From Gavia stellata (Eukaryota; Chordata; Aves; Gaviiformes; Gaviidae), in contig NC_082596.1 in NCBI RefSeq assembly GCF_030936135.1, positions 1-64,000 of the forward strand: a stretch of DNA of 64,000 nt. The letters are read 5' to 3'. Numbering within the stretch: position 1 is the stretch's first letter; each line of letters opens with the position of its first letter. Shown piece after piece: positions 7,711 to 31,080 of the stretch. The notes beneath the pieces are model-generated. The model did no database searches. It was not told where the DNA came from and worked only from the letters and a program-made list of their open reading frames with translations. A program made the translations under genes and the position numbers.

Positions 7711-10700
7711 TCAGGGCTGGACGCCGGCGGCAGCGGGAACCGGCGAGCCCAAAGCGTTGGGAGAGGAGATGACGGGCGAGGCAGCCAGGCTGCCGATGGG
7801 CTGGGAGGCGGACATCGAGGTAATACCTGCGCCGGAGAGAGCGAGGGGGGTTGTCAGGAGCGCTCAGAGCTGTCGGCGCTCGGCGCTGGGGGGGGTCGCG
7901 GAGCCCCACGGGCTCGAGCACTCACCTGCCAACATACTGGAGGAGCTGACGGGCGTGTTACTGGCCGAGAGTCCAGCTGCGGTGCCGATCCTTGCCGGGT
8001 CTTTCGCTATGGGATCTGTGGGGCAGAGGGGAAGGCAAGAGGTGTCAGTGAGGGGTCCCCGCACGCCGAGGGGAGCGCTGGGGCCTCGCCGCCCCCCTCC
8101 CCGGTACCCCCGAGATGGGGCGGCAGCCCCGCGGGGGGCTGGATGGGCAGAGGGAGGCAGCCAGCAAGGAGGGAGCTGCGCCACGGGCACTGCGGAAGGA
8201 GCAGAACCGTCGGGGCGGTGAACGGTGGCAGTGAGGAGAGGGGTTCTGGGCAGAGGGTACGTCAGGGAGGGGACGGCGGCAGCGCCCAGGAGCTGGGGCA
8301 GGCAGCGGTGCGGGCAGACGTACAGAAGTAGGGGTGCTCCATGGCGTCCCGGGCAGTGAGTCGTGTCTGGTGGTCGTAGCGCAGCAGCTTGTCCAAGAAA
8401 TCGAGCGCCTCGGTGCTCACGAGGTGCTGGTTCTCGCTGTGCACGAAGCGCTCCCACCGCTTCCGCGAGTGTCTGAGAGGAGGAGGAGGAGGGAGAGCTG
8501 CATCAGCCTCGCGCCCTGCCGCCGGCACCTCGCGCTCACCTCCCACGCTGCCCTCTCCGGCTCTGCGCCCAGAGGTGGGACACCGCGGCCAGCACAGCCA
8601 GCGCCGGGCCAGTCGCCAGCTCCGGGAGGAGCGAGGCCAGGCTGTGGGGAGGGAGGATTTGGGGAGGGAGGGCACCGCCACCCGCCTGACCCCCGCCGGC
8701 CGCGCACCCACCTGCCGAGGATGTCGTTGAAGCGGGGATCGAGCTCGATGTTGTACTTGTCGATGTAGTCGTACAGGTCCTCTGTCCCCAGCACTTTGGC
8801 GATGCGCACGAGCTGGCAGAAGGGTGGAGAAGCGGCAACACTGAGGGTGACGGCAGAGACGGGGGCTCCCCCCAGCCCAGCCCCACCCTGCAGGTCCCAG
8901 GGCCCCCCCCGAGGTGTCCCTCGCTCCCCCAGCGAGGACACAGCTCAGCGGAGCTCCGTGGCTGGGGAAGGACGCGCTCTTGGCACTCTGCAGGGCGGAA
9001 AGCGAAGGCAAGGCCTCGCAGCCCTTCCCTGGGGCCGCTGGAAGCAGCGCAGAGGCGTTCGGTGTGCTCCTGCTCGTGGCAGGGAAGGGTGAACAGATGC
9101 CAGAGGCGCTCCAGGGCCGGCATTCCAGAGCTGGAGTGGATCCAGACGCCCGATTTCCCCTCCTCGCCCCGAGGGCGGATGCAGCGAGGAGCCCGGATCC
9201 CACAAAGGCAGGTTCCTGCAGGCCCGTCTCCGGGCCGCGGTGGGGTTAGGGGCCCGCCGGGCACGCCTGCGTTCGCTGGCTGAGCTTACGGGAGCGATAC
9301 GAGCGGGAAACGCGTCTCCGCTCTCGCCAGCCAGCTCCGAAGCCGCGTCCCACGAACCCCGGCGTGGCAGCAGCAGCATCGTAACCAAAACGGAGCGCGC
9401 TGCAGCTCCTGAGCTCCCACCTCGGCTACGGCCCCTCCGGCAGCGCGTGGGTCAGGCAGACGGCCCCTCTCAGCACCTCCCCGTACCACCAGAGCCCAGC
9501 CACCCCCAGATTTAGCTGCCAGCTCACCCACTCCTCCCTCCGACAGAAGGCAGAGGGATCGGAGAAGCAGGGAGCACCCAGACCCCGGCGTGGGGAGGGG
9601 ACGGAGAAGCCGGGGCAGCACGTGGAGGCGGCACTGAACCAGCACGGCAGCCTCCGATGCCGGCGCTCGTGTGCCGCCCGTTTGCTTCCCAGCGCCGTTC
9701 CCCGGGAGGGTCTGCGGGAGGAGGGGGTGATGGGGGGAGCGGGCAGCGTGCTGCCCCGGAGCTCACTTGGTCGTAGTTGTCGTGACCGTGGAAGAAGGGC
9801 TCTTTCCGGAAGATCATGCTGGCCAGCATGCAGCCTAAACTCCACATGTCTAAGCTGTAGTCGTACATCTGGAAAAGCCGAGGAGAGAGAGAGGGAGAGG
9901 GGAGGTCAGCGAAGCTCCGGGAGCCACCAGGCCACTGGGACGGCCCAGGAGGGGGAATACACGCTGAGCCCCCTCCCAGAGGACGGCAGAGAGCAGAGGG
10001 AGGGTTTCTGCTGCCACAGCCGGCAGCTCCGGGCTCTGCTTTGCCCAGCACCGTCTCCAAGACAGGCTTTCGGCTTCAGACCCTGAACCGCACGTGGTCT
10101 CGTCGGCCACGGGCAGAAAAGCTAGACGCCGACCAGCCAAGAGCAGCCACCTCGAGGGCTGTTTGGAGGATGGGAGATACTCTCTTTCATTCCCACTTTC
10201 CCCAACTATTTCACCCCCTGGCGCAGGTTCAGCCCGGGCAGGTTACACCCATCGCTCAAGAGCCTTTCCAGCCAGCCGGAGTTGTACCTGGGCCGTCCCT
10301 TGTCCTGCTCACGTGCAGCCGCAGGTTGTAACCCACCGGGCACGTGCCTGGGCACGGGAGAGCCCCGGGCTGCACGGCAGCAGGACGCCGCAGCCGCAGG
10401 ACGCCAGCCTGCGCCTCCGCACCCAGGCTCCGCTGTCGGCATGAGGGGCCGGGCCCTGCCGGGACGTACCTGGTAATCTACCAAGAGCTCCGGTCCCTTG
10501 AAGTACCGCGAGGCCACCCGCACGTTGTACTCCTGGCCGGGGTGGTAGAACTCCGCCAGCCCCCAGTCGATCAAGCGCAGCTGGAGGAGAAGGGGAGAGA
10601 GCACATCGGCACGGGGACCGGCAACGCCGCAGACCCCGGGCCCGCAACGCCTCGCCTCTCCAGCAGCCCCTCCCGCGTTTGCAACCATTAACCCGCCTCT

Positions 10701-30849: not shown

Positions 30850-31080
30850 CTGGCCGAGCGCCGCGGCCCGGCGCTGTGGGGAGGGGCGCTGCCTCCCCTC
30901 CGCTGGGGGTGACAAGATGGCGGCGGCTCCTGGCGGCGGCGGCGCCGTCGGACGGGCCCGGCCCCGCCGCGCCGACGGGGGGCGCCACCGCCCCGCCGCC
31001 GGGACCCGGCCAGAGCGCCGCCTCCCGCCCGGCGACCGCGCCGCGCCGCCGCCGCCACTGCGCCTGCGCGGGGGACCCCG
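30850..31080 (-). promoter_or_regulatory. CK2 gene CpG-island promoter and probable non-coding exon 1
   Basis: This is a very CpG-dense block on the minus strand upstream of the CK2 coding exons. AAGATGGCGG at 30914-30923 reads CCGCCATCTT on minus, a YY1-type initiator-proximal element. GCGCCTGCGC at 31060-31069 resembles an NRF1 site. On minus a good donor (CCAG before GTAGGC) is found with the last exonic base at 30850, so a non-coding first exon of about 200 nt is likely, spliced to the acceptor at 21564. The evidence is motif-based and no transcript was seen. Confidence 0.55.

Follow-up and report, generated by a model that had tools for sequence, protein, structure and literature searches.

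A third CK2 alpha gene of the CSNK2A1 type in the bird Gavia stellata, very probably an ohnologue of CSNK2A1

CK2 alpha genes described to date and their counterparts in Gavia stellata

CK2 alpha proteins are characterized by DWG, GPE and KKKK motifs and by the catalytic residues K68, E81, D156 and D175. The zebrafish gene name csnk2a4 implies a CK2 alpha beyond CSNK2A1 and CSNK2A2, to which the gene studied here may possibly correspond. In the available part of a study of telencephalon regeneration in zebrafish, csnk2a4 is listed among the Wnt-pathway genes "Up in X1" (PMC7581945), and CK2 is described with two catalytic subunits in the available sections of PMC8533506. Among the literature matches listed, judged by titles and abstract openings, there was no paper on a third CK2 alpha of birds. 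CSNK2, HSF1 and DGAT1 are absent from the main text of PMC8449477 and PMC6321700 and, as far as its available text goes, from that of a survey published in 2026 on how birds have lost ohnologues (PMC12954441). According to the same partial text, this survey sought only ohnologues with human orthologues, so that a gene lost in humans would be missing from it.

The DNA analyzed here, referred to as the window, comprises the first 64 kb of the 105-Mb contig C3 in the 1.32-Gb assembly of Gavia stellata. The assembly contains three CK2 alpha genes, located on C3 (within the window), C20 and C15. When 275 residues of the window protein were used to search the genome, at least 78 matches were obtained (140 scored of 200 candidates), 22 of which reached at least 62% identity and fell on C3 (8), C20 (7) and C15 (7); the remaining 56, at 50% identity or below, look like other kinases. 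The C20 gene is the canonical CSNK2A1, identical to human at 326 of 328 core and 57 of 63 tail positions, and the C15 gene is CSNK2A2. With CSNK2A1 and CSNK2A2 thus assigned, the window gene is a third CK2 alpha. The initial annotation had suggested looking for a second CSNK2A1-type gene with a canonical tail, and had named the absence of any other CSNK2A1 as a refutation of its proposal; the C20 gene shows that this refutation does not apply. The near-invariance between bird and human expected of the CSNK2A1 core is seen in the C20 gene, which differs at 2 of 328 positions, but not in the window gene, which differs at 13; the neighbours expected of CSNK2A1 (TCF15, SCRT2, SLC52A3 and RSPO4) likewise all adjoin the C20 gene instead.

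Structure of the window gene and its protein

The window gene has 12 coding exons on the minus strand (7711..21528), which together form an open frame of 1179 nt encoding 392 amino acids and a stop, and all 11 introns between them are bounded by GT-AG. The first coding exon (21428..21528) carries an alanine at position 13, where CSNK2A1 has T13. It is followed by exons 2 (19003..19114), 3 (17057..17158), 4 (15015..15065), 5 (13921..13980) and 6 (12783..12866), by exon 7 (10470..10580), which encodes the DWG loop and activation segment with residues as in CSNK2A1, and by exons 8 (9767..9868), 9 (8712..8812) and 10 (8324..8472). The divergent tail begins in the penultimate exon (7926..8015), which measures 90 nt compared to 87 nt in the CSNK2A1 of the same bird, and the last exon (7711..7826) contains the stop codon. 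A candidate AATAAA poly(A) signal lies about 380 nt past the stop (7323..7328, minus strand). The tblastn matches of the exons, with E values from 6e-28 to about 1e-6, are collinear on one strand, which excludes a chance match.

DGAT1 is the tail-to-tail neighbour of the window gene, with coding matches at 1754..5696 on the plus strand, and the 3′ part of HSF1 lies on the other side (47623..63725, minus strand), with the rest extending beyond the window to contig position 119076. The view of the initial annotation, an intact 12-exon CK2 alpha gene between DGAT1 and HSF1, is therefore borne out by the open frame, the GT-AG introns and both flanks. Its interval for the gene, 7711 to 31080, holds for the part from 7711 to 21528; its more distant limit, 31080, would agree with a CpG island that contains a YY1-like motif (30500..31100, minus strand; motif at plus-strand position 30914) and is a candidate promoter or putative non-coding first exon. 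Upstream of the coding exons, about 10 kb (28580-38609) consist of near-continuous minisatellites with periods of 9 to 272 bases, which give rise to long spurious open reading frames (708 and 1583 aa). Between 33.6 and 47.5 kb of the window there are 51 open reading frames of at least 150 aa, many within minisatellites, and GC skew is strong at 28-32 kb.

The window protein matches the Pfam Pkinase model with an E value of 1.4e-69, and its top match in the PDB is CK2 alpha 5omy (87 sequences at 1e-60 or below; best 60 of the 87 listed). The 5omy chain, which we take to be human CK2 alpha, equals residues 1-390 of the human CSNK2A1 used as reference. Compared to this reference, the core is identical at 315 of 328 positions and the whole alignment at 348 of 391, whereas the core shares 280 of 328 residues with human CSNK2A2 and 281 of 328 with the bird CSNK2A2. 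The latter has A13 and F131 in common with the window protein but is without the long tail of the CSNK2A1 type.

Intron positions are common to the window gene and CSNK2A1 of the same bird, 11 of 12 exon lengths are equal and the remaining exon is one codon apart, and 317 of 328 core residues are identical; the differences are at positions 13, 18, 96, 98, 129, 131, 152, 295, 311, 317 and 328. Both proteins have a long C-terminal tail, of which only 34 of 63 aligned residues are identical. As the initial annotation had stated, the core thus carries about a dozen changes (13 of 328 relative to human CSNK2A1, including all five that it had quoted), and the tail is much more diverged than the core.

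A processed retrocopy similar to human CSNK2A3 was ruled out by the 11 introns within the coding part. We take CSNK2A3, a further human CK2 alpha locus, to be an intronless retrocopy.

Paralogous neighbourhoods and origin

On C3, HSF1, SCX (at 178 kb) and MAF1 (at 263 kb) lie upstream of the window gene and, like it, are encoded on the minus strand. The coding matches of HSF1 are spread over about 71 kb (C3:47623-119076), and queries with CYC1, EXOSC4 and SRXN1 gave no match at 1e-3 in C3:1-264000. Upstream of CSNK2A1 on C20, and on the minus strand like CSNK2A1, we find TCF15 (1.3925 Mb), SCRT2 (1.4046 Mb), SLC52A3 (1.412 Mb) and RSPO4 (1.444 Mb), names that were assigned from the query proteins, from family models and from the location of the matches. 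The same four genes are presumably the neighbours of human CSNK2A1.

Hence SCX on C3 and TCF15 on C20, both on the minus strand, each lie upstream of a minus-strand CK2 alpha gene. They are also the best two of the 36 matches in a search with the TCF15 bHLH domain, in which all 56 candidates were scored. These mirrored surroundings favour an early-vertebrate ohnologue of CSNK2A1. The third-best match in this search, a bHLH stretch at C8:6989714-6989905 with 73% identity to the TCF15 query, possibly represents a further paraxis/scleraxis-like gene; the matches ranked below it have at most 62% identity.

Human 8q24.3, 20p13, 16q21 and 14q11 form one quartet, represented by NDRG1-4, MMP14/15/16/24, SCX/TCF15, SCRT1/2 and SLC52A2/3. 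The NDRG family has 10 matches in Gavia stellata (25 of 25 candidates scored), every one of them on C3, C20 or C15, at distances from the respective CK2 gene of about 9 Mb on C3, 16 Mb on C20 and 92 kb on C15, where CSNK2A2 is located. As the C3 and C20 genes are megabases away, they support a relationship of the chromosomes rather than of a close block. RSPO-family matches were found on C20 (75 kb from CSNK2A1), on C3 at 20.6 Mb, taken as RSPO2, and on C2 and C29, with two weak ones on C13 and C44. The paralogous block of a CSNK2A1 ohnologue is accordingly represented by SCX/TCF15 nearby, and by NDRG and RSPO genes that share the contigs but are mostly megabases away.

A search for SCRT1 in which each of its 21 candidates was scored did not reveal this gene, as its 3 matches were confined to C20, and SLC52A2 was not found among 150 scored of its 589 candidates. 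In human, both genes presumably lie next to DGAT1; they would have strengthened the comparison of the blocks, and their absence counts against the ohnologue reading. Since contig C3 begins at DGAT1, with window positions 1-1750 as the contig start, SCRT1 and SLC52A2 may sit in unassembled sequence. Feather-keratin matches, which mark the assembly as that of a bird, number at least 150 (150 of 422 candidates scored) and form large clusters on C3, C28 and C33, with others on C544 and C785; a dense cluster is situated about 1.2 Mb into contig C3 (C3:1214448-1440380).

The CK2 alpha tree was built from six proteins. In the full-length tree, the window gene falls outside the human and bird CSNK2A1, with weak support (55); in the core-only tree, human and bird CSNK2A1 form a pair (81) and the window gene is placed beside CSNK2A2 (45). 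With these six proteins, the AU test rejects none of five topologies (trees 1 and 5 being the same unrooted tree), with p values from 0.064 to 0.78; at full length, the topology that joins the window gene with human CSNK2A1 has p = 0.65. Taken by themselves, these trees leave an old split neither supported nor rejected.

CSNK2A1 could also have been copied, together with its introns, into this location at a later time, during sauropsid or bird evolution, with rapid change of the copy afterwards. A bird-specific duplication is not rejected by the AU test (p = 0.064 for the full length, 0.114 for the core), and the GC-rich location could accelerate change (GC3 of 0.784 in the window gene compared to 0.513 in CSNK2A1 on C20). 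We nevertheless consider such a later duplicate unlikely. By chance, it would have to land no farther than about 160 kb from SCX, whose paralogue TCF15 is a neighbour of CSNK2A1, and in matching orientation, and the position alone has a chance of roughly 2 to 3 in 10,000 by rough arithmetic for a 1.32-Gb genome. The placement of the window gene outside human and bird CSNK2A1 in the trees, despite its weak support, also speaks against it.

The window gene is therefore, as read from this one genome, very probably a real and constrained third CK2 alpha of a bird, an ohnologue of CSNK2A1 from the early vertebrate whole-genome duplications that has been kept in a block homologous to human 8q24.3 (DGAT1-HSF1-SCX-MAF1). 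The proposal of the initial annotation that it is an old duplicate, for example from a genome duplication, gains support from surroundings that mirror those of CSNK2A1, with SCX/TCF15 on matching strands. In such a history, the early vertebrate genome duplications would have generated the sister copy of CSNK2A1, and the fourth copy of the quartet would have been lost. To our knowledge, mammals appear to have lost the third gene. Within the old CK2 alpha family, it counts as a new member, which bird annotations probably already list with an automatically assigned name.

Constraint, regulatory sites and proposed role

Between the window gene and CSNK2A1 on C20, synonymous divergence in the core has reached saturation, so that dS is undefined by NG86, and 161 of the 317 codons for shared residues differ. 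Together with a core dN of only 0.025, this indicates an old gene under purifying selection. The tail has a dN of 0.33 compared to a dS of 1.47.

A decaying or untranscribed copy is very improbable. Although its tail matches the sister protein at far fewer positions than the 57 of 63 shared between human and bird CSNK2A1, the gene retains an open reading frame, all its splice sites and a candidate poly(A) signal, only 11 of 328 core residues have changed despite saturated synonymous change, and dN remains below dS even in the tail. All 38 functional core positions that were checked (29 and 9) are retained as well. The CSNK2A1-like gene structure would also fit bird CSNK2A1 itself, relocated or misassembled, but this reading can be set aside with near certainty, as it is already refuted by the separate canonical CSNK2A1 with its expected neighbours on C20, and the 105-Mb contig that carries the window gene runs on into HSF1, SCX and MAF1.

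The motifs and the catalytic residues of the CK2 alpha kinase domain are all retained in the window protein. Sequence comparison showed that 11 of 11 contact residues for CK2-beta, which we take to be Y39, L41, F54, I57, I59, V67, I69, V101, P104, V105 and V112, are unchanged. Likewise retained are K102, Y182, Y188, S194, Y255 and S277, which the available text of PMC8533506 gives as modified sites of CK2 alpha. According to the same partial source, T13 is an AKT site, and T360 and S362 are ERK2 and CDK1 sites (PMC8533506). These three are lost in the window protein, with A at position 13 and A and Q at the equivalents of T360 and S362. In contrast, the equivalents of T344, S347 and S370 are retained, and the window protein has S-P sites at its positions 376 and 382 that CSNK2A1 lacks. 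With such a combination of lost, kept and new sites, the protein would respond differently to upstream kinases.

Judged from its sequence, the product of the window gene is most likely an active CK2 alpha with altered regulatory inputs. It would be made, fold like CK2 alpha, bind CK2-beta and phosphorylate acidic serine/threonine sites like its sisters, and in CK2-beta holoenzymes it may be controlled by another set of upstream signals than its sisters. Beyond this, we tentatively suggest, with somewhat less than even confidence, that jawed vertebrates began with at least three CK2 alpha genes and that birds still run the third isoform, with its catalysis intact and cut off from control by AKT (T13) and by ERK2 and CDK1 (T360/S362). 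If true, the CK2 system of mammals would be a reduced form of that of vertebrates, and surveys that start from human genes would overlook the member that is missing. A third constrained CK2 alpha in birds would also mean that work on CK2 in birds and in mammals compares different gene sets. The window gene represents a natural variant without several of the named regulatory sites of CK2 alpha.

Outside the exons, little similarity to CSNK2A1 was detected. Comparisons of the 3′ and 5′ regions of the two genes for conserved non-coding sequence gave short matches only, mostly G- or T-rich, the best of which is a G-run with an E value of 1.4e-4. Using blastn at 1e-3, window positions 5700-32000 matched 11 of the 12 coding exons in C20:1358001-1371000. 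One additional match is out of order: 101 bp with 80% identity between window positions 26560-26660 and an intron of CSNK2A1 (C20 1367800-1367900), probably an interspersed repeat.
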